Assembly (NCBI RefSeq): GCF_000472285.1
Contig: NZ_KI421421.1
Location: 673,158-737,157 of the forward strand
Source: Desulfuromonas sp. TF
GTDB lineage: Bacteria; Desulfobacterota; Desulfuromonadia; Desulfuromonadales; ATBO01
Length of the DNA: 64,000 nucleotides
Reading direction: 5' to 3'
Shown: one piece after another, positions 36,236-48,394 of the stretch
How positions within the stretch are numbered: position 1 is the first letter of the stretch
Layout: each line of letters starts with the position of its first letter
Translations under genes and position numbers: made by a program
The notes under the pieces: generated by a model
Databases searched by the model: none
Seen by the model: only the letters and a program-made list of their open reading frames with translations
What the model was told of the DNA's origin: nothing

Positions 36236-37381
36236 ATGTTCGAATTTGATGAGAGCATCGATCAGACGGCCAAGATCAAGGTCATCGGCGCCGGCGGCGG
36301 AGGAGGCAACGCGGTCAACACCATGATCCTGTCGCAGGTGGAGGGGGTGGAGTTCATCGCCGCCAACACCGATGCGCAGGCGCTCAAGAACAGCCGGGCG
36401 CCGATGAAGATCCAGCTCGGCAGCAAGCTGACCAAGGGGCTCGGAGCCGGAGCCAATCCCGAGGTCGGGCGCGAGGCCGCCATGGAGGACAAGGCCCGCA
36501 TCGCCGAGATCCTCCAGGGCGCCGACATGGTGTTCATCGCCGTCGGCCTGGGAGGCGGAACCGGAACCGGGGCCGCTCCGGTCATCGCCGAGGTGGCCAA
36601 GGAGCTTGGAGCCCTGACCGTGGGAGTGGTGACCAAACCCTTCTCCCGCGAAGGAAAACAGCGCCAGAAGAAGGCCGACGAGGGGGTGGAGTGCCTCAAA
36701 GGGGTGGTCGACTCGCTCATCGTCATCCCCAACGACCGGCTCCTCGGTCTGGCCGGCAAGAACATGAGCATCCTCGATGCCTTCAAGCCGTCGGACGACG
36801 TGCTGCGCCAGGCGGTGCAGGGGATCTCCGATCTCATCACCACCAGCGGCCTGATCAACGTCGACTTTGCCGACGTCAAGGCGATTATGAGCGAGCGCGG
36901 CATGGCGATGATGGGGATCGGCATCGCCGAAGGGGAAAGACGGGCGGCCGAGGCGGCCCAGAAGGCCATCAGCAGCCCCCTTCTGGAGGACATAGACATC
37001 TCCGGGGCCAAGGGGGTGCTGGTCAACATCTCCGGCTCCTCCAACATGACCATGGAGGAGTTCGACGAGGCTTCCCGCATCATCCACGAGAAGGTGCACG
37101 AAGACGCCAACATCATCATCGGCCTGGTGATCAACGAGGATCTGGGGGATCAGATCAAGATCACCGCCATCGCCACCGGCTTCGGCGCCTCCTTTGAAAA
37201 GGGACGCCGGCACGCCGAAGAGCTCAAGAGCCGGGCCGCCACGACGATGGGGAAGGTCGACCGCGATCTGCCCACCTTCATCCGCGACCGGCAGAAGGAA
37301 AACCCCCGCGCCCTGCGCTCCACCATGCGCGAGGATGAGGAGTTCGACATCCCCACCTTCCTGCGCAAGCGCGTCGACTGA
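36236..37381 (+). CDS. ftsZ: Cell division GTPase FtsZ
   Basis: FtsZ polymerises into the Z-ring. The 381-aa protein has [17 protein letters not shown] at the start, the tubulin signature [13 protein letters not shown] (about residues 103-115), and the conserved C-terminal tail [14 protein letters not shown] that binds FtsA and ZipA-type partners. It is the last gene of the dcw cluster; a terminator lies 138 bases downstream, and the integron follows. Confidence 0.98.
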
Positions 37382-37518
37382 GGCTGCGCATCGGGCCCCG
37401 TGCCCGGGCGCTCCTCCGTCTCCTGATTCACTGCTGTCAGACCCCCGCCGGTTCTCCGCCCGGCAACCGGGGGATCTGTCTATCTGTCTGTTATGTGACG
37501 TCGACTCCCTCGTCAACG

Positions 37519-37550
37519 GGGGACCGCCTGGTGCGGTCCCCTTTTCTTTT
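37519..37550 (+). terminator. Terminator closing the dcw cluster
   Basis: The perfect stem GGGGACCGC / GCGGTCCCC with loop CTGGT (37519-37541) is followed by TTTTCTTTT. It ends the ftsZ transcript and separates it from the integron. Confidence 0.92.
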
Positions 37551-37573
37551 GGGACCGCCGGCGGGAACGGAGC

Positions 37574-37602
37574 TTGACAAAAGGAGGTAAAAGGTTTTCA
37601 AT
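37574..37602 (+). promoter_or_regulatory. Candidate intI promoter
   Basis: TTGACA (37574-37579), a 17-base spacer and TTCAAT (37597-37602) form a plausible sigma70 promoter just after the ftsZ terminator. Because intI and the cassettes share this strand, it could also supply cassette transcription. I see no obvious LexA-type palindrome over it. Confidence 0.55.
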
Positions 37603-37645
37603 GAGCGAACTTGCTTTGATGCATTGACTTCTCGGGAGGGACCCG

Positions 37646-37672
37646 ATGGAGGGTGGAAAAGAAAGAAATTGA
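37646..37672 (+). CDS. Possible leader mini-ORF (MEGGKERN)
   Basis: An 8-codon frame has an ideal GGGAGGG ribosome-binding site 5 bases before its ATG, and its stop codon lies 3 bases before the hairpin at 37676. That layout is typical of translation-linked attenuators, but the peptide has no run of one amino acid that would name a signal. It is too short to be judged by composition. Confidence 0.3.
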   Translation: MEGGKERN

Positions 37673-37675
37673 GTT

Positions 37676-37720
37676 AAGCCGCCGAACCGGCCTTGAGCCG
37701 GTGGGTGGCTTTTTGTTTTT
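37676..37720 (+). terminator. Terminator/attenuator hairpin directly upstream of intI
   Basis: Two nested stems stack: the outer AAGCCGCC / GGTGGCTT and the inner ACCGGC / GCCGGT with loop CTTGA. A T-rich run (TTTTTGTTTTT) follows. It ends where the intI ribosome-binding site begins. Placed between the candidate promoter and the intI gene, it should limit intI and cassette expression. Confidence 0.7.
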
Positions 37721-37729
37721 GGAGGGGGG

Positions 37730-38752
37730 ATGGACGAATTGGTCAAGCATGGCAATAGAGAGGAGGGTCGTAAAACTCCGGTTCAGGGGGCCGGCGGCCC
37801 AAAGCTGCTCGACCGCCTGAGGGAGTCGTTGCGCACCCGACACTACAGCCGCAGGACCGAGGAGGCCTACTCCCACTGGGTCAAGCGGTTCATTTACTTC
37901 CATGGCGTGCGTCACCCGAAGGAAATGGCGGAGCCGGAGATCAACGCGTTTCTGACCCACCTGGCGGTAAAGGGACAAGTCAGCGCCTCGACCCAGAACC
38001 AAGCGCTATGCGCTTTGCTGTACCTTTACAAATACGTTATCGGCAGGGAAGTCGGAGAGTTTGGAGATGTCGTTCGCGCTAGAAAGCCGAAGCGGTTGCC
38101 AGTCGTTTTGACACGTGAAGAGATTAAAGTCGTCCTCGGACATCTAGCGGGTGACAAGTGGCTCATGGCCAGTTTGATGTACGGGACCGGATTGCGATTG
38201 ATGGAGTGCCTGCGGTTGAGAGTGCAGGATATCGATTTTCGACAGAGCGAGATCACCATCCGGGATGGTAAAGGTGGCAAGGACCGACGGACGATGTTGC
38301 CCCAAACTTTATCGGCACCGGTTCAGGCTCACCTTCTCAAGGTGAAAAAAACGCATGAACAGGATTTATCCCATGGCTGGGGACAGGCAAGCATGCCCGA
38401 GGCGTTAGGGCGAAAATACCCTAATGCCTCTACAGAGTGGCGCTGGCAGTGGGTATTCCCTCAGGAAAATCGATGGAAAAACCTGAAAACTGGAGAAGAG
38501 GGCCGACACCATGCTGATGAATCCATTTTGCAGAAGGCATTCAAAAGGGCGGTAAACCAAGCGGGCCTCGTCAAGAGAGCCAGTTGCCATACACTGCGGC
38601 ATTCATTTGCTACACATCTGCTGGAAAATGGGCATGATATCCGAACTGTTCAGGAACTGCTTGGACACAAGGATGTTCGAACAACTATGATTTACACTCA
38701 TGTGCTCAATCGGGGAGGACAGGGAGTGCCCAGCCCGATCGACTCTCTATAG
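37730..38752 (+). CDS. intI: Integron integrase IntI
   Basis: IntI is a tyrosine recombinase that inserts and excises cassettes at attI and attC. The 340-aa protein has a SAM-like N-terminal domain (about residues 25-115) and a catalytic domain with Arg146 (GTGLRLMECLRLRVQDID), Lys171 or 174, His287-x-x-Arg290 (CHTLRHSFATH), His313 (LLGHKDVRTTMIYTHV) and nucleophile Tyr322. The stretch GRKYPNASTEWRWQWVFPQ (about 227-245) is the extra segment found only in integron integrases, so this is not a generic phage integrase. GGAGG precedes the ATG. No frameshift is seen, so it may be active. Confidence 0.95.
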   Translation: MDELVKHGNREEGRKTPVQGAGGPKLLDRLRESLRTRHYSRRTEEAYSHWVKRFIYFHGVRHPKEMAEPEINAFLTHLAVKGQVSASTQNQALCALLYLYKYVIGREVGEFGDVVRARKPKRLPVVLTREEIKVVLGHLAGDKWLMASLMYGTGLRLMECLRLRVQDIDFRQSEITIRDGKGGKDRRTMLPQTLSAPVQAHLLKVKKTHEQDLSHGWGQASMPEALGRKYPNASTEWRWQWVFPQENRWKNLKTGEEGRHHADESILQKAFKRAVNQAGLVKRASCHTLRHSFATHLLENGHDIRTVQELLGHKDVRTTMIYTHVLNRGGQGVPSPIDSL

Positions 38753-38908
38753 AGCAACGTAACGAGATTTATTTGGAAACCGGATAAAATTCCGGTCCAC
38801 TTGTAAATAGCCGAAAATCGATATATTTTTAATTTTCTGAATGAATTTTATCCGGAAGGAAAATTGAATTTCGGATCTATCTGGAAACCATATAAACAAT
38901 AGTTAGCT
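38753..38908 (+). other. attI-like region with core site GTTAGCT
   Basis: The core GTTAGCT (38902-38908) is the insertion point of the first cassette, which begins TTAGCT. Upstream is an AT-rich 149-base stretch. It contains an inverted repeat (38780-38855) and two similar direct words, TTTGGAAACCGGATAAAA near 38773 and ATCTGGAAACCATATAAA near 38879. Paired repeats beside the core recall accessory integrase sites of attI. A weak promoter-like pair, TTGTAA (38801) and TATTTT (38824), lies inside the inverted repeat and could be a cassette promoter. Confidence 0.6.
38780..38855. repeat. 13-bp perfect inverted repeat in the attI region
   Basis: CCGGATAAAATTC (38780-38792) and GAATTTTATCCGG (38843-38855) are exact reverse complements separated by 50 bases. 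The left arm is itself part of the near-palindrome CCGGATAAAATTCCGG. Confidence 0.7.
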
Positions 38909-38919
38909 GCTGAGGGAAG

Positions 38920-39471
38920 ATGAAAATACCCATTTCCCATTACTTGCGGTTCTGGATCATAAACTCAGCAATGGCCTTCGGTACTGGCTTTGTGATGGGT
39001 ATGATGTTCGATCGGTTTTTATTTTTTCTACTCCCGCCTATCACATTCCCCTTCGTATTTGCTCTCATTTACCAGTTCTTCGTTTTGTCCTACTTCTTTG
39101 GGGGCCGCAGGGGGGCATTCGAGTATTCATACCTTGAAAGATCCGCCGAAAGGGACCCAGCCTTAAGGGCAGACTTCAAGGAGGTTAAAAATGAATACAA
39201 ACTTGGGGATCCAAAAACAGCTAATTTGAAGCTAAATGAGATCACAGAGAAAGCCCCGAACCACTTCGTAGCACGCTTCAAGTATGCCATTTCGTGTGAG
39301 AAGCTTGGACAAACCCAAGAGGCAATTGTCTCCTATGAAGCGGCAGCTGACCTCTCGGAAGTTGATTCAAAGATTCTGCACGAGTATGTCCTTACGCAGA
39401 TCGACCGCGTCAGAAGAAAAGGGCCGTCAACCAAAACGACAGCACCTGGTTTGCAGTATGTGATCTATTGA
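38920..39471 (+). CDS. Cassette 1: two-helix membrane protein with TPR-like tail
   Basis: I do not recognise a named family. The 183-aa protein has two hydrophobic helices (about residues 12-35 and 38-60). A soluble part follows with a TPR-like pair of helices (about 88-140; GDPKTANLKLNEITEKAPNH and LGQTQEAIVSYEAAADL). TPR pairs usually mediate protein binding. GAGGGA lies just before the ATG, and the cassette begins 17 bases upstream. Its attC R'' (AGCTAAC) mirrors the cassette start. Confidence 0.8.
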   Translation: MKIPISHYLRFWIINSAMAFGTGFVMGMMFDRFLFFLLPPITFPFVFALIYQFFVLSYFFGGRRGAFEYSYLERSAERDPALRADFKEVKNEYKLGDPKTANLKLNEITEKAPNHFVARFKYAISCEKLGQTQEAIVSYEAAADLSEVDSKILHEYVLTQIDRVRRKGPSTKTTAPGLQYVIY

Positions 39472-39479
39472 CCAAGCGC

Positions 39480-39582
39480 AGCTAACCCTCGCATGCAGCG
39501 GGCGGCGTGACAGCAGTGGTCCTCGAAAAATTTCTACATGACTGAAGGGTCGCTAGCCGCCGCTGATGCAAATCCGTTAAAC
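39480..39582 (+). other. attC site 1
   Basis: R'' is AGCTAAC (39480-39486) and R' is GTTAAAC (39576-39582), a 103-base site. The interior arms GCAGCGGGCGGC and GCCGCCGCTGATGC are imperfect complements, as needed for the folded single-strand substrate of IntI. The next cassette starts at the R' TT. Confidence 0.85.
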
Positions 39583-39591
39583 GGAGGGAAA

Positions 39592-40179
39592 ATGTCACAG
39601 CTCCTAGCTGCGGTCGTAGGCGGATTTTTAGCTGCAGGGACGGGTTGGTTCCTACAGTGGCGGCTTGAGGCGTCGCGGCTCAAACTAACCAAATCGCTGC
39701 TAGTCACCGGCATAGTCGACGACCTCAAATCGTCGGTAAGTTTGTACGAGCGCCTAATCGATGAATGGGAGAAAAGTGGGACCATTTGGTTCACTACCCT
39801 AAACGAATTACGCGAATCGCGGCAGATCTATCTCAAGAACCGCGACTGGTTGGTTTTAGTCAAAGCCGAGGATCTTCGGCAGCGGGTTTTCAAGTATTAC
39901 CACCGAAGCTCAGATCACATAAATCTTCTTGAAAATCAGCAAAGTCGTAAGTACGTGATCCAGCAAAAGCTGAATGAGATCATTCGCGATATCAAGCTGC
40001 GGCAGGAAGGGGTCACTCATAAGCAGGCTCTCGAGCAGGCGGTCAATGCAATGCAAGCTGAAGACCAGGAGCTGGTCGGAATAAATGAGTTAATCCCTCA
40101 AAATATTCAGAAGGTGCGTGACTATAGAGATGAGGCTAAGGAATTGGTCACGGCCCTTCAGAAGGAACGTTCCGTTTAA
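39592..40179 (+). CDS. Cassette 2: N-terminally anchored coiled-coil protein
   Basis: This 195-aa protein has one N-terminal hydrophobic helix (about residues 4-22; LLAAVVGGFLAAGTGWFL) and a long, charged, mostly helical body with probable coiled coil (about 100-190). It resembles unnamed integron-cassette proteins of similar layout. I chose the ATG at 39592, not an earlier frame start at 39538. The earlier start lies inside attC1, whereas GGAGGG sits 5 bases before 39592, just inside the cassette boundary. The stop codon is embedded in the R'' box of attC2. Confidence 0.8.
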   Translation: MSQLLAAVVGGFLAAGTGWFLQWRLEASRLKLTKSLLVTGIVDDLKSSVSLYERLIDEWEKSGTIWFTTLNELRESRQIYLKNRDWLVLVKAEDLRQRVFKYYHRSSDHINLLENQQSRKYVIQQKLNEIIRDIKLRQEGVTHKQALEQAVNAMQAEDQELVGINELIPQNIQKVRDYRDEAKELVTALQKERSV

Positions 40180-40245
40180 CAAGTCGCTCCATCCGACCGC
40201 AAAACCGCTGCGCGCTTTTGCGACGGCTGAGCTTTATCGTTAGGT
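40174..40245 (+). other. attC site 2
   Basis: R'' is GTTTAAC (40174-40180), which matches the TTAAAC start of cassette 2, and R' is GTTAGGT (40239-40245). At 72 bases it is the shortest of the set. The arms GACCGCAAAA and TTTTGCGACGG pair. Confidence 0.88.
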
Positions 40246-40252
40246 AATTACA

Positions 40253-40579
40253 TTGAATAATAAGCCAACTACAATCATCATTATCAATATTGTACTATTC
40301 CTGCTTTACTTGAAATTTGGAACAATGGCATTTTGGGTCATTGCAGCGTTGGGAGTTTCATCCATCATCTTTATAGTATTTGTAACGCTAATTTTGCAGG
40401 TATTTTTCCACGAATTTTATGAAATAAAATTTTGCCATGTCATAACAAAAATAACGGGAACAAGTTTTGACATGCCAATTTTGACAGAAAACCAAAGAAA
40501 AAAATGTAAGAAAGGCATTTTTCTCATAGTTATAATTATCTTCGCATTGATTTTTATATATATTCCAAGGTTTATATAG
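40253..40579 (+). CDS. Cassette 3: small multi-helix membrane protein
   Basis: Function is not recognised. The 108-aa protein has about three hydrophobic segments (residues 6-20, about 22-46, and about 86-106) and is strikingly rich in Ile and Phe. The DNA is much more AT-rich than the chromosome, a sign of foreign origin. The start is TTG with no clear ribosome-binding site, 12 bases after the cassette boundary; other near starts are possible. Confidence 0.65.
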   Translation: MNNKPTTIIIINIVLFLLYLKFGTMAFWVIAALGVSSIIFIVFVTLILQVFFHEFYEIKFCHVITKITGTSFDMPILTENQRKKCKKGIFLIVIIIFALIFIYIPRFI

Positions 40580-40595
40580 CAGAAATATAATCATT

Positions 40596-40701
40596 ACCTA
40601 ACCATGTAATCAAGCGGACGGTTGGGGCATGAGCAATAATTTTGAATAGTTCGGTGGTGTTCGTAAGGTCGCGTCGCCGCCGCTTATCTCCACCGTTAGC
40701 A
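40596..40701 (+). other. attC site 3
   Basis: R'' is ACCTAAC (40596-40602), mirroring the TTAGGT start of cassette 3, and R' is GTTAGCA (40695-40701); length 106. The arm ATCAAGCGGACGG pairs with CGCCGCCGCTTAT. It is closely similar to attC4 in the L'' and L' parts. Confidence 0.88.
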
Positions 40702-40710
40702 AGTCGAATT

Positions 40711-41052
40711 ATGAAAGCAATAAAATTCATATCAATATTCACCTGCGGGTTCTTACTGGGGGCCTTTGTCGTCTTCAAACTTTTGGCGATAAAAGACGTA
40801 GACATAACTTCCCTTCCCTACATGAATGAAACGGTAATCCTTGAAGAAGGTGTCCGCGTCGAACAGAACGGCAATGCCATTCAACTGCCAAAAGGCATTG
40901 AGATGAATTTAGTCTATCGCATGCCTGAAGGGTTGGAATTTTACAGCATACCGATTCATTTCGATTATTCGAATGAACCAAATATCGACTACGTTTCAAA
41001 GAAAGAACACAAGACAAGTTATTTCTACGGACCAAAAGAAATTGAAAAATAA
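40711..41052 (+). CDS. Cassette 4: exported or signal-anchored protein
   Basis: This 113-aa protein has an N-terminal hydrophobic helix (about residues 4-24; FISIFTCGFLLGAFVVFKLL) and a soluble extracytoplasmic part with beta-rich composition. No known domain is recognised. I used the ATG at 40711; a longer in-frame reading begins inside attC3 and translates the recombination site. The stop lies 8 bases before the next attC. Confidence 0.72.
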   Translation: MKAIKFISIFTCGFLLGAFVVFKLLAIKDVDITSLPYMNETVILEEGVRVEQNGNAIQLPKGIEMNLVYRMPEGLEFYSIPIHFDYSNEPNIDYVSKKEHKTSYFYGPKEIEK

Positions 41053-41059
41053 GAGGCCT

Positions 41060-41176
41060 TGCTAACAAGCAAATCAAGCGGATGGAAAATAGCTGGGTGC
41101 TTCTCGAAAAGCAAAATCAAATTGCGGTAGTAGGCCGAACTTTCGCGTCGCCACCGCTTATCGCGAACCGTTAGGC
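41060..41176 (+). other. attC site 4
   Basis: R'' is TGCTAAC (41060-41066), matching the TTAGCA start of cassette 4, and R' is GTTAGGC (41170-41176); length 117. The arm TCAAGCGGATGG pairs with CCACCGCTTA. Confidence 0.88.
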
Positions 41177-41230
41177 GTCGAAAAGATAATACGGTCATCA
41201 TTAACGACTCAGTCGAAAGGGAATTATGAC

Positions 41231-41596
41231 ATGGCAAAGTTCTTAATTTTAACAGTGTCAATTATCATAATGTCCGCATGCTCACCGACACCCAAGGCGA
41301 TGAGACTTGACGCACCAGTTTCTGTTTATACAAGCAATAAAGAACCAAAAGACATTGCTATTTGTATAACTGAAAAATGGGAGAATACTCGGGTTATTGG
41401 CGGTAGCCTAGACGTCGATTTTCACCCAACAGAAAACGGATACTGCATTACCCAAAAAATATCCGGGAAATTATATTATTTGGCAGACATCGAAAATTCT
41501 CAAAATGGTAGTTTAACAAAACTATATAAATGGAACATGGTTATGTCCATCGGCGAAAATACTTCTATTGTCGGTGTCGCAGAGTGCCAACTTTAA
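41231..41596 (+). CDS. Cassette 5: putative lipoprotein
   Basis: The 121-aa protein has a lipoprotein-type signal: MAKFLILTVSIIIMSAC, with Cys17 as the likely lipidated residue after SA. The mature part is small, beta-rich and of unknown function. A GAAAGGG precedes the ATG by about 10 bases. Composition is AT-rich compared with the chromosome. Confidence 0.75.
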   Translation: MAKFLILTVSIIIMSACSPTPKAMRLDAPVSVYTSNKEPKDIAICITEKWENTRVIGGSLDVDFHPTENGYCITQKISGKLYYLADIENSQNGSLTKLYKWNMVMSIGENTSIVGVAECQL

Positions 41597-41606
41597 TAAG
41601 AAAAAC

Positions 41607-41878
41607 GCCTAACACTTATCAAGGGGTAGACTCCACCGCGCACGAGAAAGAATAACTCCTTCCGCTCTTTGACAAGCGACTGAATCCTCGAAAGACCTGC
41701 CGATTCCGACTTGGGATTTTTTCCTGGTTGCAGACGAATTCTGCACCAAACACTTATCGAGGCTCTTTTGTGCGGGGCTCTTTCGAGTCCTCCCGCCGCC
41801 TGGAATCACGCGCGTGCCCTTATGTCGGCCCAGTCAAAAGGTCGGGGTGCGAGAGACTTCCTCGCCCTGCAGTTAGGT
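41607..41878 (+). other. attC site 5, degenerate or doubled
   Basis: R'' GCCTAAC (41607-41613) matches the TTAGGC start of cassette 5. A second, similar start, ACCAAACACTTATCGAGG, begins at 41747 and copies the first (GCCTAACACTTATCAAGG). The only good R' is GTTAGGT (41872-41878), preceded by CCTCG that pairs with the CGAGG of the second copy. So the span probably holds a broken attC (41607 onward) and a more complete one (41747-41878, 132 bases). No gene is seen between them. Confidence 0.6.
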
Positions 41879-42094
41879 GCACTTTCTGTCGACCTCTCAA
41901 CTTCCGTACCCGTAGAGATACCGTCGATCTGGGGGAAGCGGTCCATGATGGGCAACAGTGTATCCGCCAAGTTCTGCGATGATAATGGGGTTAAGAGGCT
42001 TCAGTTAACAGGGGCGGAAGCCTGGTAAATGGCACCCCCTGTTATATCCTCTAAGAGTAAGGTGGCGACCTGAACCCAGCAGGGAGAGTCAACG
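41879..42094. other. Gene-free spacer with hairpin, decayed cassette material
   Basis: No convincing gene is present. TAACAGGGG (42007-42015) pairs with CCCCTGTTA (42036-42044) around a 20-base loop, without a T-run. A core-like GTTAACA overlaps the left arm at 42005-42011. The short frame ending at 42028 has no ribosome-binding site and no recognisable product. Confidence 0.5.
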
Positions 42095-42583
42095 ATGAAG
42101 AAACAGCTTATCTTTGTCACGATTGTTGTGTTTTCAGTTGTCGGTGTAATTTCCGAGAGTCCGGCGTTTGCCGCGGAAAAGGACATAGAAGGAGTGCGTG
42201 CAGCGGCAGAGCAATTCTACTCTGCTCTCAATGTGATGTTTACCGGTGAATTGCTGCCAATGAAAGAGGTATGGTCGCATAAGGATGATGTGACTTATAT
42301 GGGCCCTGGAGGTGGCTTTCGTCTCGGCTGGAAGGACGTATTGGCCGACTGGGAGACACAAGCAGACTTGAAACTTGGTGGCAAGGTAGAGCCAAAGGAC
42401 ATGCGGATCACGGTGGGGCGTGACCTTGCGATTGTCAGCAACTATGAGATAGGTCACAACGTGACGGCAGATGGAAAGGTTCAGAAAGTTACTATTCGCG
42501 CGACAAATCTTTTTCGTAACGAGAATGGGAAATGGAAAATGATCGGCCATCACACGGATATACTTCCCTTTCTGCAGGAGTGA
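42095..42583 (+). CDS. Exported SnoaL/DUF4440-like (NTF2-fold) protein
   Basis: The 162-aa protein has a Sec signal peptide (about residues 1-27, cleavage after AFA) and a single NTF2-like domain. That domain holds VRAAAEQFYSALN, the central GPGGGFRLGWKDVLADWE, and the terminal TNLFRNENGKWKMIGHHTD typical of the DUF4440/SnoaL_3 group. These are mostly uncharacterised; some bind small ligands. AGGGAG precedes the ATG. A cassette-type core lies upstream (42005) and an attC-like R'' lies downstream (42601), so it may itself be a trapped cassette. Confidence 0.8.
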   Translation: MKKQLIFVTIVVFSVVGVISESPAFAAEKDIEGVRAAAEQFYSALNVMFTGELLPMKEVWSHKDDVTYMGPGGGFRLGWKDVLADWETQADLKLGGKVEPKDMRITVGRDLAIVSNYEIGHNVTADGKVQKVTIRATNLFRNENGKWKMIGHHTDILPFLQE

Positions 42584-42600
42584 CCGCTGTGCCGGAAACT

Positions 42601-42615
42601 GGTTAACAAATCGCC
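42601..42615 (+). other. attC R''-like remnant after the SnoaL gene
   Basis: GGTTAACAAATCGCC closely matches the first 15 bases of attC2 (GTTTAACAAGTCGCT). No L' or R' half follows before the DUF488 gene starts at 42631, so it would be a truncated site. Confidence 0.4.
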
Positions 42616-42630
42616 AAACCGGAGAAGAAA

Positions 42631-43017
42631 ATGACCATAAGGATCGTGAGATTGGGTGCTCCCAGGGAAGAAGGCGAAGGGCTGCGGATAGGAACGGTGA
42701 GACGGCCTCCCCGTGGAGTGAGAAAGGAAGACTACTCCGCAAAGGACATCTATGACGTCTGGTTTCCGAATCTGTCTCCCAGCGAGGCCTTGGTGAAGGA
42801 AGCTCAGGCGGCCGGTGATGAGACGTCATGGAAAGCATTCCAAAGGAAGTTCCTGGCGGAGCTGAAGGCTCCGGGGACGAGCAGGGACCTGGATTTGCTG
42901 GCGGCCCTGTCTCATCAGACAAATATGTCGATAGGCTGCTATTGCGAGGATGAGTCCCGTTGCCATCGGTCAATGTTGAGAGAGCTTCTCGTTCAGAGAG
43001 GAGCTGACGTCAAATAA
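42631..43017 (+). CDS. DUF488 family protein
   Basis: The 128-aa protein has the DUF488 layout: an early RLGAPR, then VRRPPRGV, YDVWFPNLSPS, and a C-terminal cysteine segment IGCYCEDESRCHRSMLREL (about residues 102-120). The family is widespread and uncharacterised, sometimes near DNA or stress genes. GGAGAAGAAA precedes the ATG directly, just after the attC-like remnant. Confidence 0.85.
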   Translation: MTIRIVRLGAPREEGEGLRIGTVRRPPRGVRKEDYSAKDIYDVWFPNLSPSEALVKEAQAAGDETSWKAFQRKFLAELKAPGTSRDLDLLAALSHQTNMSIGCYCEDESRCHRSMLRELLVQRGADVK

Positions 43018-43114
43018 GGATTGCTCAGTTATCACCCTAGGCGTTGGTGCGCAGTCGCTGTTCCAGGCGCTCAACGCGAAGGTCGTAGAATTAATGAGTC
43101 GAATACGAACGTCC

Positions 43115-43198
43115 ATGCCGTCACCCACTCCGCTCATGGCCATCCCCTGGCTTCTGGTCTACTCCGCCGTCCTCATCTGGTCCGCTATCGGACCGAAA
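43115..43198 (+). pseudogene. Truncated 5' copy of the DUF2238 membrane-protein gene
   Basis: The frame reads MAIPWLLVYSAVLIWSAIGPK, in short form nearly identical to MVLPWLLIYFAVLLWSAIGPK at the start of the intact gene at 44766. The similarity is also clear at the DNA level and stops after the PK codons. No downstream half is present before the aldehyde dehydrogenase gene, so this is a remnant of a duplication or insertion. Confidence 0.75.
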
Positions 43199-43247
43199 GC
43201 ATTCCACAGACCCTGCTTAGTACATATTCATCGCCATGGAGGTGCCG

Positions 43248-44666
43248 ATGCAGAATCGCGACAAGTTGTACATTAACGGCCAATGGGTTGAATCCACGGG
43301 GAAGGATTTCATCGACGTCGTCAATGCGTCGACAGAGGAGGTGATGGGGCGCATCCCCGCGGGCACGTCGGAGGATGTGGACGCCGCCGTGGCTGCGGCG
43401 CGCAGCGCCTTCGAGGGGTGGGAGGCCACCCCGGTCGAGGAGCGGGCGGCGGCCCTCACAAGGCTGCACCGGGGGCTGACCGAGCGCGGAGAGGAGATTG
43501 CCGTCACCATCACCGGTGAGGTGGGCATGCCCCTGAAACTCTCCCGGCGGGTCCAGGCGGGGCTGCCGTCGGCGGTCATGGAGAGCTACGCCCGTCTCCT
43601 CAAAGATTTCTCCTTCGAGGAGCGCGTCGGCAACTCCCTAGTGGTGCGCGAGCCCGTCGGGGTCGTCGGGTGCATCACCCCCTGGAACTATCCCCTCAAC
43701 CAGGTGGTGGCGAAGGTGGCCCCGGCCCTGGCCGCCGGCTGCACGGTGGTGCTCAAGCCGAGCGAGGTGGCCCCTCTCACGGCTTTTATCCTTGCCGAGA
43801 TCGTCGACGGGGCCGGCCTGCCGCCCGGGGTCTTCAACCTGGTCACCGGCACCGGCCCGGTGGCGGGCGAGGCCCTGGCACGCCATCCCGAAGTGGACAT
43901 GATCTCATTCACCGGTTCGACCCGGGCCGGCCGGAGAATCTCGGAACTGGCGGCCCCTACGGTGAAGCGACTGGCGCTGGAACTGGGGGGGAAGTCGGCC
44001 GCGGTCATTCTGGAGGACGCCGACCTTGCGGCCGCGGTCAAGGGGACCGTGAACTCCTGCTTCCTCAACTCCGGACAGACCTGCTCGGCCCACACCCGGA
44101 TGCTGGTCCCCGAAAGCCGCTACGAGGAGGCGGCCCGGCTGGCGGTGGAGACGGCCAGCTCCTTCACCCCGGGCGATCCCGGCGACGAGCGGACCCGCCT
44201 CGGGCCGCTGATCTCCGAGGTGCAGCGGGAGCGGGTACGGACCTACATCCGCCAGGGGACCGCGGAAGGGGCGGCGCTGCTCCTCGGCGGCCCCGAGCCC
44301 CCCGAGGGCCTGGAGAAGGGCTACTATGTGCGGCCCACCGTGTTCGGCCGGGTCGCTCCCGGGATGACCATCGCCCGGGAGGAGATTTTCGGCCCGGTCC
44401 TTGTCATTCTCACCTATCGGGACGAGGACGAGGCGGTGCGCATCGCCAACGACACCACCTACGGACTGGCCGGGGCCGTCTGGTCAGGGGACGAGGAGAG
44501 GGCCATGCACGTGGCCAGAAGGTTGCGGGCGGGTCAGATCGACATCAACGGCGGCCGCTTCAACCTCCTGGCCCCCTTCGGCGGCTACAAGCAGTCGGGA
44601 TACGGCCGGGAGATGGGCCGGTTCGGCCTCGAGGAATTTCTCGAGGTCAAGGCAATCCAGCAATAA
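43248..44666 (+). CDS. NAD(P)+-dependent aldehyde dehydrogenase
   Basis: The 472-aa protein is a standard aldehyde dehydrogenase that oxidises aldehydes to acids. It has [20 protein letters not shown] (about residues 143-162), the nucleotide site [11 protein letters not shown], catalytic Glu in LALELGGKS (about 243-251) and catalytic Cys in [12 protein letters not shown] (about 277-288). The ATG at 43248 has GGAGGT 4 bases upstream; the ATG at 43236 does not. The substrate cannot be told from sequence. It is flanked on both sides by DUF2238 sequence. Confidence 0.93.
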
Positions 44667-44765
44667 ATTCGAGATCAAGATTCTGAAGGGTCTCAAAGAC
44701 CGGATTTCGCGGCAGATAACCCAAGCAAAGGGGCGGGGAACATCATCCTCAATAGAATTAAGCCC

Positions 44766-45407
44766 ATGCAATCACGTCTCCCATCCATGGTCCTCCCGTG
44801 GCTCCTGATCTACTTCGCCGTCCTCCTCTGGTCCGCCATCGGGCCGAAGGACCGGTTCACCTGGTTCCTCGAGGTCCTGCCGGCGCTGATCGGCCTGGCG
44901 GTGCTGGCGGCGACCTGGAGGCGTTTTCGTCTGACCCCTCTGGCCTACCTGCTGATCCTGATCCACTGCCTGATCCTGATGGTGGGCGGACATTATACCT
45001 ACGCCGAGGTCCCGCTGTTCGACTGGCTGCGAGATGCGGCGGGCGGGGCGCGGAACAACTACGACAAGCTCGGGCATTTCGCCCAGGGATTCGTTCCGGC
45101 CATGATCGCCAGGGAGCTTCTGCTGCGGCTGGAGGTGGTGAAGGGTAGGAGATGGATGAACTTTCTCGTGGCCTGCATCTGCCTCGCCCTGAGCGCCTTC
45201 TATGAGCTTATCGAGTGGTGGGTGGCACTGGCGTCAGGAGAGGGGGCGGAGGCCTTCCTGGGAACGCAGGGCTATATCTGGGACACCCAGTCCGACATGG
45301 CCCTCGCCCTGGCCGGGGCGATCCTGGCGCTGGCGCTGTTGAGTAGGCTGCATGACCGGCAGCTGGCACCCCTGCCCACTCCGTCCCGTCCTCATTTCAA
45401 TCCTTGA
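44766..45407 (+). CDS. DUF2238 (YjdF-like) membrane protein
   Basis: The 213-aa protein has about six hydrophobic helices. Family motifs are present: WSAIGPKDRFTWFLEVLPAL at the start, HYTYAEVPLF (about residues 75-84), NYDKLGHFAQGFVPAM (about 98-113), ALSAFYELIEWW and GYIWDTQSDM. The function of the family is unknown. A truncated second copy of its 5' end lies upstream of the aldehyde dehydrogenase. Confidence 0.9.
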   Translation: MQSRLPSMVLPWLLIYFAVLLWSAIGPKDRFTWFLEVLPALIGLAVLAATWRRFRLTPLAYLLILIHCLILMVGGHYTYAEVPLFDWLRDAAGGARNNYDKLGHFAQGFVPAMIARELLLRLEVVKGRRWMNFLVACICLALSAFYELIEWWVALASGEGAEAFLGTQGYIWDTQSDMALALAGAILALALLSRLHDRQLAPLPTPSRPHFNP

Positions 45408-46636: not shown

Positions 46637-48394
46637 ATGCGCGACAACTTCCCGAGGCGATCGACATCCATGTCCCGCAAGCTCATCGATAAGGCCCGCC
46701 GTCGCCTGGAAGGCGAGACCGGCTGCCGGTCCAATCCCTGGGGCGGACGTCTGTCCGTGGCCCTGCTCTATCCCAACACCTATCACCAGGCCATGAGCAA
46801 CCTGGGATTCCTCTCGATCTACCACCACATCAACAGCCGCGAGGATGCCCTGTGCGAACGCTTCTTCCTCCCCGATCCCGAGGATCTGGCGGAGCATCGA
46901 AAGACCGGGTACCCTCTCTTCTCTCTAGAATCGGGGCGTCACCTGACCGATTTCGACGTCATCGCCTTTTCGATTTCCTTCGAAAACGACTATATCCATC
47001 TGCCCACCATTTTCGAGTTGAGCCGCCTCCCTCTTTATGCCGAGGATCGCGCCGACCGCTTCCCCCTCCTGCTGTGCGGCGGAGTCTGCGCTTTTCTCAA
47101 CCCCGAGCCGCTGGCGCCGATCATGGACGTCTTCGCCATAGGGGAGGGGGAGGTCCTCCTTCCGGCCTTCTTTGAGGCCATGGCGCTGGAAAAAGCCGGC
47201 GGGACGGATCTGCTCCGCCGTCTTTCCGCCGTCCCCGGTCTGTACGTCCCTTCTCTGTACCGGGTCGATTACAACGAGGACGGCACCGTCAGGAAATATA
47301 CGGCGGAGACGGGGGTTCCCGAGCGGGTTCGCCGCCAGTGGCTGGCTGATCTGAACAGCGCCGAGACCCGTTCCTTCATCCTGACGGAGGAGACGGAGTT
47401 CTCCGATATGGCCCTCACGGAGATCTCCCGGGGCTGCTCCCGCGGATGCCGCTTCTGCGCCGCCGGTTTCCTTTACCTGCCGCCCCGGGAGCGAAACCTG
47501 GAGCATCTGATCGATCAGGTGGACCAGGGTCTTTGCCACCGTGAAAAAGTGGGTCTGGTGGGTGCAGCCATCTCCGATTATTCGCACATCGGGGAACTGG
47601 AAGGGGAAATCCTTGCGCGGGGGGGAAAGGTCTCGGTGGCCAGCCTGCGCATCGATTCCCTCACCCTGCCGGAGGTGGAGGCTCTGCGCGACTCCGGCCA
47701 CCGCACCGTGGCGCTGGCGCCCGAGGCGGGAAGCCAGCGAATGCGGAACCAGGTCAACAAGAACCTCACCGAAGATGAAATCCTCCGCGCCGTGCGGCTG
47801 CTGGCGGAAAACGGGATCCCCAACCTGAAGCTCTATTTCCTGATCGGACTGCCCGGTGAGGAGGAAGAGGACATCGCCGAGATGCTGGAGCTGACCGGCC
47901 GCATTCGTGAGATCTGGGTGGAGGCAGGAAAAAAACAGGGCCGGCTGGGGAGCATTACGCTGTCGGTGAACCCTTTTATTCCCAAGCCTTCGACCCCCCT
48001 GCAGTGGGCGCCCATGGAGGGAGGGAAAAGTCTCGAACGGAAAATGAAAGTCCTGCGCTCCGCCGTGGCGAGACTCCCCAACACCGAGGTGATCTTCGAA
48101 TCTCCGCGCGCCGCCACCGTGCAGGCCTTTCTTTCCCGGGGGGATCGCCGGACCGCGCGGGCGCTGCCGCACCTTGCTTCGGGCAAAAATCTGAAAGCCG
48201 CTTGCCGCGAGACCGGCCTGGATGCGGAGTTTTACGTGACCCGCGAACGAGGAGAAGACGAGGTTTTTCCCTGGGAGATCCTGGACAGCGGGGTGGACCG
48301 GGAGTACCTGTGGCAGGAATTTCAGCGGGGATTGCAGGGGAAACTCACCCCCCGCTGCATGCAGGGCTGCCAGCGCTGCGGAGTATGCGGATAA
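46637..48394 (+). CDS. B12-binding-like radical SAM protein
   Basis: The 585-aa protein has an N-terminal B12-binding-like domain (VALLYPNTYHQAMSNLGF near residues 37-54). A radical SAM core follows with the cluster motif CSRGCRFCAAG (C-x3-C-x2-C, about 268-278). A C-terminal extension ends in a second Cys-rich motif, CMQGCQRCGVCG (about 574-585), which could hold another cluster. This layout matches uncharacterised radical SAM proteins, some paired with DUF2344, which is absent here. The start is uncertain: ATG 46637 or ATG 46670. Confidence 0.88.
   Translation: MRDNFPRRSTSMSRKLIDKARRRLEGETGCRSNPWGGRLSVALLYPNTYHQAMSNLGFLSIYHHINSREDALCERFFLPDPEDLAEHRKTGYPLFSLESGRHLTDFDVIAFSISFENDYIHLPTIFELSRLPLYAEDRADRFPLLLCGGVCAFLNPEPLAPIMDVFAIGEGEVLLPAFFEAMALEKAGGTDLLRRLSAVPGLYVPSLYRVDYNEDGTVRKYTAETGVPERVRRQWLADLNSAETRSFILTEETEFSDMALTEISRGCSRGCRFCAAGFLYLPPRERNLEHLIDQVDQGLCHREKVGLVGAAISDYSHIGELEGEILARGGKVSVASLRIDSLTLPEVEALRDSGHRTVALAPEAGSQRMRNQVNKNLTEDEILRAVRLLAENGIPNLKLYFLIGLPGEEEEDIAEMLELTGRIREIWVEAGKKQGRLGSITLSVNPFIPKPSTPLQWAPMEGGKSLERKMKVLRSAVARLPNTEVIFESPRAATVQAFLSRGDRRTARALPHLASGKNLKAACRETGLDAEFYVTRERGEDEVFPWEILDSGVDREYLWQEFQRGLQGKLTPRCMQGCQRCGVCG

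Follow-up and report, generated by a model that had tools for sequence, protein, structure and literature searches.

What kind of integron has its integrase gene facing its own cassettes, and what marks the site at which those cassettes would enter? We asked this of a 64,000-nt stretch of Desulfuromonas sp. TF (contig NZ_KI421421.1, positions 673,158 to 737,157; hereafter the window), in which an integrase gene, intI, lies behind ftsZ on the same strand as an attI-like site and a series of cassettes bearing attC sites. We are highly confident that this is a chromosomal integron of sedentary type, belonging to the known inverted-integrase kind, with an attI that in the main clade of such integrases is extended by a second pair of arms.

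Integrase, attC sites and cassettes

The 340-amino-acid product of intI was recognized by TIGR02249, the NCBIfam model for integron integrases (477.2 bits against a cut-off of 265), and by Pfam as Phage_integrase plus SAM_4; the XerC, XerD and XerA models all scored it under their own cut-offs, as did the integron-integrase equivalog NF011946 (346.8 bits, cut-off 435). Its residues 24-339 align with the solved IntI4 (2a3v) at 305 bits across the KYPNASTEWRWQWVFP stretch, and the alignment covers the R / K / HxxR / H / Y positions, which we take to be the catalytic ones. A preliminary description of the locus, made from the letters of the sequence, had rightly named an integron integrase with the specific KYPNASTEWRWQWVFP segment and the catalytic residues.

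We searched for attC sites with a covariance model (R1) built from seven attC sites of other loci, with the R- and L-box structure set by hand; six of these came from relatives, one from next to this genome's second integron and none from the window. On both strands of the 64 kb (E ≤ 1), R1 returned four sites, all on the + strand and all behind intI, and no further site. With filters off over 38700-43300, the next-best match reached 9.6 bits (E = 0.3, at 42913-43049). A broader model (R2), built from 79 R1 matches in 40 loci with the window excluded, recovered the same four. Covariance models were used in place of a scan for attC box motifs, which gave about 1.8 chance matches per shuffled 7 kb.

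Since there are four attC sites, four cassettes are attC-bounded. A fifth is likely, judging from an open reading frame (ORF) at 41231-41596 and the R''-like GCCTAAC that follows it; R1 with filters off scored no attC behind this ORF, the best match nearby reaching 5.0 bits (E = 6.5). The preliminary description had counted at least five cassettes, of which four stand on attC sites and the fifth on its ORF and box, and had ended the integron at 41878, where a GTTAGGT has no model support. No cassette ORF scored above a cut-off in curated family searches; by eye, all five (38920-41596) look like membrane or exported proteins. Rfam gave no match in the window at gathering score, and a weak search of 37380-39000 returned sX14 alone, at 24 bits where 80 is required.

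In the mechanism that we favor, IntI (37730-38752) would capture circular cassettes by recombining a folded attC with the attI downstream of intI (about 38769-38908). The orientation of the attI core would give incoming cassettes the direction of intI, as the attC sites indicate for cassettes 1-4 and as we would expect of the fifth.

Orientation on the integrase tree

We used R1 to score the orientation of intI relative to its attC sites in other loci. Forty stretches, 39 from relatives plus the one around the second integron of the source genome, gave 6 same-strand, 20 classical and 14 unmatched cases; six of the forty had supplied R1 sites. Eighty named loci, the best of 582, gave 9, 16 and 55, respectively; L049 and L107 share one record, so that the 120 hold 35 distinct classical loci. 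In a 94-row integrase tree, a single branch (support 100/97) split the 16 same-strand rows, the window among them, from the 35 classical rows. R1 then called 22 of 68 further loci classical and one same-strand (L170), with 45 unmatched, and among 14 longer stretches it called three classical and two same-strand (L257, and L246, the same place as L170), with nine unmatched.

We asked whether a pair of same-strand loci lying outside the main clade were strays, which was ruled out: R2 found + strand arrays or sites behind intI in that group, in L246 (three), L254/L265 (five), L115 (six), L264, L257 and L128, as well as in L247/L160 and L189 within the main clade. A tree of 107 rows has a single branch between 24 same-strand rows, of which 18 belong to the main clade and 6 to the second group, and 41 classical ones (ultrafast bootstrap [UFBoot] 99; SH-like approximate likelihood ratio test [SH-aLRT] 90; 99% of 200 bootstrap trees), and in a 121-row tree the extra R2 labels fit these sides (L104 same-strand; L157, L146, L138, L127 and L069 classical). 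Thus, the same-strand layout spans a second integrase group and is still one change on the tree.

The window lies inside the main clade (47 rows, 100/98), whose phyla, per record titles, include Planctomycetota, Chlorobiota, cyanobacteria, Spirochaetota, Actinomycetota and others, and which also holds the Treponema-titled loci L108 (Treponema denticola) and L156. The second group comprises 12 rows (99/98); its members L115, L128, L246, L257, L264 and L265 come from Krumholzibacteriota, Rokuibacteriota and the phylum of the window. The same-strand order proposed in the preliminary description is therefore what we find (intI on +, four + attC sites downstream), and its rarity holds in the form of a minority layout, at 24 rows to 41, with the protein placed among same-strand integron integrases (99/90). 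Neither outcome that the preliminary description named as refuting it, a tree position outside the integron integrases or a lack of attC folds, was obtained. Some observations blur so clean a division: L054, labelled same-strand, carries attC on both sides of intI; L124, classical, has one site upstream of intI scored on the + strand; and the trees are a sample, with the best 80 of 582 loci taken from the search.

The palindrome pair between intI and cassette 1

The stretch between intI and cassette 1 holds two copies of a palindrome, TTATACGG-(1-3)-CCGTATAA, one by the intI stop and the other 6-7 bp ahead of a GTTRRR core (Table 1). In the window this core reads GTTAGCT (38902-38908) with its arms present, and it is the attI-like core that had already been noticed behind intI. 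We modeled the palindrome as the half-site TTATACGG, 1-3 nt and the reverse complement, fitted on 37 main-clade loci (six more had too little DNA behind intI); an ungapped model missed copy 2 of the window and was replaced by this one.

The best site exceeded the 95% shuffle level in 33/37 main-clade loci and the second site in 32/37. The corresponding control counts were 0/36 and 0/36 for classical loci upstream of intI, 1/36 and 3/36 for the same loci downstream, and 1/25 and 0/25 for the main clade 700-1020 bp further on. Copy 1 fell within -10 to 45 nt of the intI stop in 31/37 loci, and the TTR of the core came 6-7 nt after an above-threshold site in 23/37 (82 sites in all), against a background of 1.9% of positions. 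The two copies of a locus matched each other at 11.4/16, compared to 10.0/16 across loci, and none of 10,000 permutations was as high (26 loci, kinship not removed). Their centers were 132-135 bp apart in 13/25 loci and 108 bp apart in the window; helical phasing of these spacings was too weak for a claim (best period 11.5, about 0.024 for distinct values under a uniform null). Among five held-out members, L160, L161 and L189 had both copies and the core, L192 had weak palindromes, and L162 showed just copy 1, since its contig stops after 50 bp. L189 is an IMG/VR contig classed as viral, with a main-clade intI 80% identical to that of L082 and with same-strand attC.

Several results speak against taking the pair as a clean signature. 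Before the held-out loci were scored, the model had been fitted to these very 37 loci, and the shuffles preserved single-base content only. Some other regions also passed: upstream of intI in the main clade (best site 6/43, second 4/43), and, for loci outside the clade, downstream (6/61 and 4/61, second-group loci included) and upstream (0/55 and 3/55). A sequence-blind palindrome test pointed the same way, but weakly: it found at least 13/16 in 6/37 main-clade loci and in 0/36 classical upstream regions, and the classical upstream average lay above shuffles (4.06 to 2.49). In L108, copy 1 is present and copy 2 weak (5.1 bits). Within the second same-strand group, 5/13 loci passed at the best site and 3/13 at the second, and the pair is no mark of every same-strand integron. 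Loci L261, L263 and L264 keep one copy, directly before the core.

We read the pair together with the core as a candidate extended attI of the main clade. Copy 2 and the core would form the recombination site, with an L arm, a 6-7-bp spacer and a GTTRRR box; copy 1, a head-to-head pair of the same arms, may serve as an accessory IntI site. Binding of IntI to both palindromes, like the crossover point in Table 1, is a prediction. As to what this arrangement does, we put at about even chances the wider proposal that a clade of many phyla has an attI extended unlike the classical one, with two head-to-head pairs of Xer-like arms, often 132-135 bp apart, on which bound IntI could loop the DNA, so that the level of IntI gates cassette entry or array transcription.

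Table 1. Features of the integron and its surroundings (window positions; bits for palindromes from the gapped model)
Feature	Position	Strand	Evidence or remark
ftsZ, end of dcw cluster, outside the integron	36236..37381	+	TIGR00065, 436.7 bits
Intrinsic-terminator-like hairpin behind ftsZ	37518..37542	+	-20.4 kcal/mol
Candidate intI promoter, weak, TTGACA-17-TTCAAT	37574..37602	+	by eye
Second terminator-like hairpin, with a T-run, immediately ahead of the intI ribosome-binding site	37676..37722	+	-24.9 kcal/mol
intI, integron integrase, main same-strand (inverted) clade	37730..38752	+	TIGR02249, Pfam, 2a3v alignment, tree
Palindrome copy 1, TTATTTGG-AAA-CCGGATAA, 16 nt after intI stop; candidate accessory IntI site	38769..38787	+	15.1 bits
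Palindrome copy 2, CTATCTGG-AAA-CCATATAA; right arm is candidate attI L arm	38877..38895	+	13.3 bits
attI core (7-nt spacer plus R box), with predicted crossover G38902^T38903	38896..38908	+	
Cassette 1, 183-aa TPR-like protein (38920-39471)	38903..39576	+	ORF list, Pfam, attC1
attC1	39480..39582	+	R1 41.3 bits, E=1.7e-9; R2 47.8 bits
Cassette 2, ORF 39538-40179, start probably ATG 39592, outside attC1	39577..40239	+	
attC2 (short)	40174..40245	+	R1 24.1 bits, E=2.1e-4; R2 34.5 bits
Cassette 3, 108-aa small protein (40253-40579)	40240..40695	+	
attC3	40596..40701	+	R1 54.3 bits, E=2.4e-13; R2 69.4 bits
Cassette 4, ORF 40642-41052, start probably ATG 40711, outside attC3	40696..41170	+	
attC4	41060..41176	+	R1 58.5 bits, E=1.4e-14; R2 76.5 bits
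Likely cassette 5, ORF 41231-41596, then R''-like GCCTAAC (41607-41613)	41171..41613	+	no complete attC recognized
Radical SAM gene, context	46637..48394	+	best match TIGR03960, 456.4 bits (cut-off 462.3 narrowly missed)

Transcription, genomic setting and known systems

The preliminary description supposed one operon, with intI and cassettes alike transcribed from the intI promoter and capture thereby linked to expression; we regard this as possible, if doubtful. It is favored by the common strand of intI and cassettes and by terminator scans, which found nothing in the window from intI to cassette 1, so that read-through from intI is possible (stem-plus-T matches occur at this place in 8/37 main-clade loci). 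On the other side, the sole upstream promoter candidate is separated from intI by the second terminator-like hairpin (-24.9 kcal/mol), which ends 18 nt before the intI ATG, and a weak promoter-like pair, TTGTAA-15-TATATT, lies inside the attI, though such pairs are not enriched between the palindromes (5/25 loci on + and 3/25 on -; shuffles 17%). Transcription of the cassettes may come either by read-through from intI or from a weak promoter inside the attI. Our promoter scan, which requires an A as the second base of the second hexamer, missed the upstream candidate for that reason. We also looked for a LexA box: lexA was found and its upstream stretch read, and no box could be assigned there.

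We considered the hairpin before intI as a feature of the clade and rejected this, as terminators at that place occur in 5/43 main-clade loci and 12/36 classical loci. Elements similar to it stand at two places in another genome, G015, behind unrelated genes, and there a shared short repeat comes next (L235, L239). The repeat is followed in L239 by what we take to be a four-helix-bundle-like ORF and in L235 by a piece that we take to be IS30-transposase-like.

The palindromes could instead be operators of a separate regulator or host protein, which we think unlikely. In favor of it, TTATACGGATCCGTATAA resembles a common type of dimer operator, and a recombination core is lacking at copy 1. Nevertheless, the palindromes track an integrase clade through many phyla and keep set positions with respect to both the intI stop and the core, and the right arm, 6-bp spacer and R box are built like an Xer-type core. 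Copy 2 shares that build through its right arm, the 6-7-bp spacer and GTTRRR, and a comparable dif-like site exists in the genome: the Escherichia coli dif pattern was not found there at up to three mismatches, and a looser pattern gave one site, GTCGCATAA-CGAATA-TTATGTAAA, with arms CGCATAA and TTATG around 6 bp, which is presumably dif.

Other integron pieces of the genome bear on whether this one still works. R1 scored 150 of 1414 first-look candidates genome-wide and returned six sites, three in the window, two next to a second intI that shares the contig of the window and one alone on contig 8; the 24.1-bit attC2 was absent from this list. The second integron (L058, G000:C10:14300-34200) is of classical orientation, with intI at about G000:C10:23822-24756 on the - strand, split between two reading frames, and two attC sites before it. 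The lone attC (52 bits, G000:C8:60822-60926; L243) is on a contig for which the integrase search listed no match. That the integron of the window is a decayed remnant that has lost recombination seems improbable: the fifth attC is not recognizable and the second intI is split, but the intI of the window is full length with every aligned catalytic position kept, and its four attC sites have good folds.

In a test for mobile integrons, the integron was found on a 753-kb contig adjoining dcw genes, and the best 5000 plasmid records were all less than 60% identical. The position behind ftsZ given in the preliminary description is correct, with the first terminator-like hairpin between ftsZ and intI; the gene before ftsZ we take from the ORFs to be ftsA. 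G+C content is 0.62 in the dcw genes, 0.54 in intI, 0.32 behind intI and 0.34-0.50 in the cassettes. In 12 relatives of the same taxonomic order, picked for room behind ftsZ, the radical SAM gene started 148-763 bp behind ftsZ in 11, and in the twelfth (L277) it was not found in the stretch taken behind ftsZ. Since the radical SAM gene of the window is at 46637-48394, the integron and several other genes part two usual neighbors there. Among these genes is one for an aldehyde dehydrogenase, with an 85-nt repeat (78% identical) on both sides, at 43113-43197 and 44764-44848; as the second copy forms the beginning of a DUF2238 gene, the first may be a partial duplicate.

Adjacency of ftsZ and intI is not peculiar to the window. 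Our census covered 112 other intI-bearing genomes (44 of the first 60, the source genome being among the 60, plus 68 further), 108 of them with an ftsZ match, and as a raw count, limited by broken contigs, four (G181, G270, G420 and G251) had intI no more than 5 kb from ftsZ. In the first three, which belong to one family, intI is 2.1-2.2 kb behind ftsZ on the same strand and directly after the radical SAM gene; in the corresponding loci (L249, L263 and L261), ftsZ, the radical SAM gene and intI are consecutive on one strand, and the integrase group is not that of the window. In G251, intI is 4.6 kb from ftsZ on the opposite strand. We consider it most improbable that this neighborhood is a preferred or functionally useful integron home, as the four cases in 112 would suggest, given that three of them are one family, that the integrase lineages of the ftsZ-adjacent cases are not the same and that two terminator-like hairpins part ftsZ from intI in the window.

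The layout itself is already known, since same-strand integrons of Treponema and a named inverted group of integrases are in print: Treponema intI is transcribed toward attI (PMC3607928), and IntI phylogenies name an 'inverted integrase' group (PMC8352920; PMC10500605). Thus, the window adds one more genome to the inverted integrons. It resembles those of Treponema in that intI points toward attI, the cassettes are on the intI strand and both fall in the same main clade (PMC3607928, PMC4909258), but its IntI is 61% identical to that of L108, its host belongs to another phylum, and palindrome copy 2 is weak in L108. With the 'inverted integrase' group it shares its place among same-strand integrases on the tree, whereas a shared attI with paired palindromes does not figure in the available parts of that group's descriptions (PMC8352920, PMC10500605), nor did the accessible portions of the open PMC literature yield a description of paired palindromes in an inverted integron's attI. 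The site attI is described as less conserved than attC (PMC3607928). A recurring paired palindrome at the landing site could be a new part, and a rule of arm, 6-7 bp, GTTRRR and a second pair at the intI stop finds a candidate attI across the whole clade, which opens attI recognition, and cassette expression when intI faces its array, to direct testing. The class 1 site attI1, as described in PMC10500605, likewise joins core arms L and R to two additional integrase sites, DR1 and DR2, to which we liken copy 1 in its possible role; unlike attI1, which lies before intI, the attI of the window lies behind it, and its extra sites are paired head to head, 108 bp away from copy 2.

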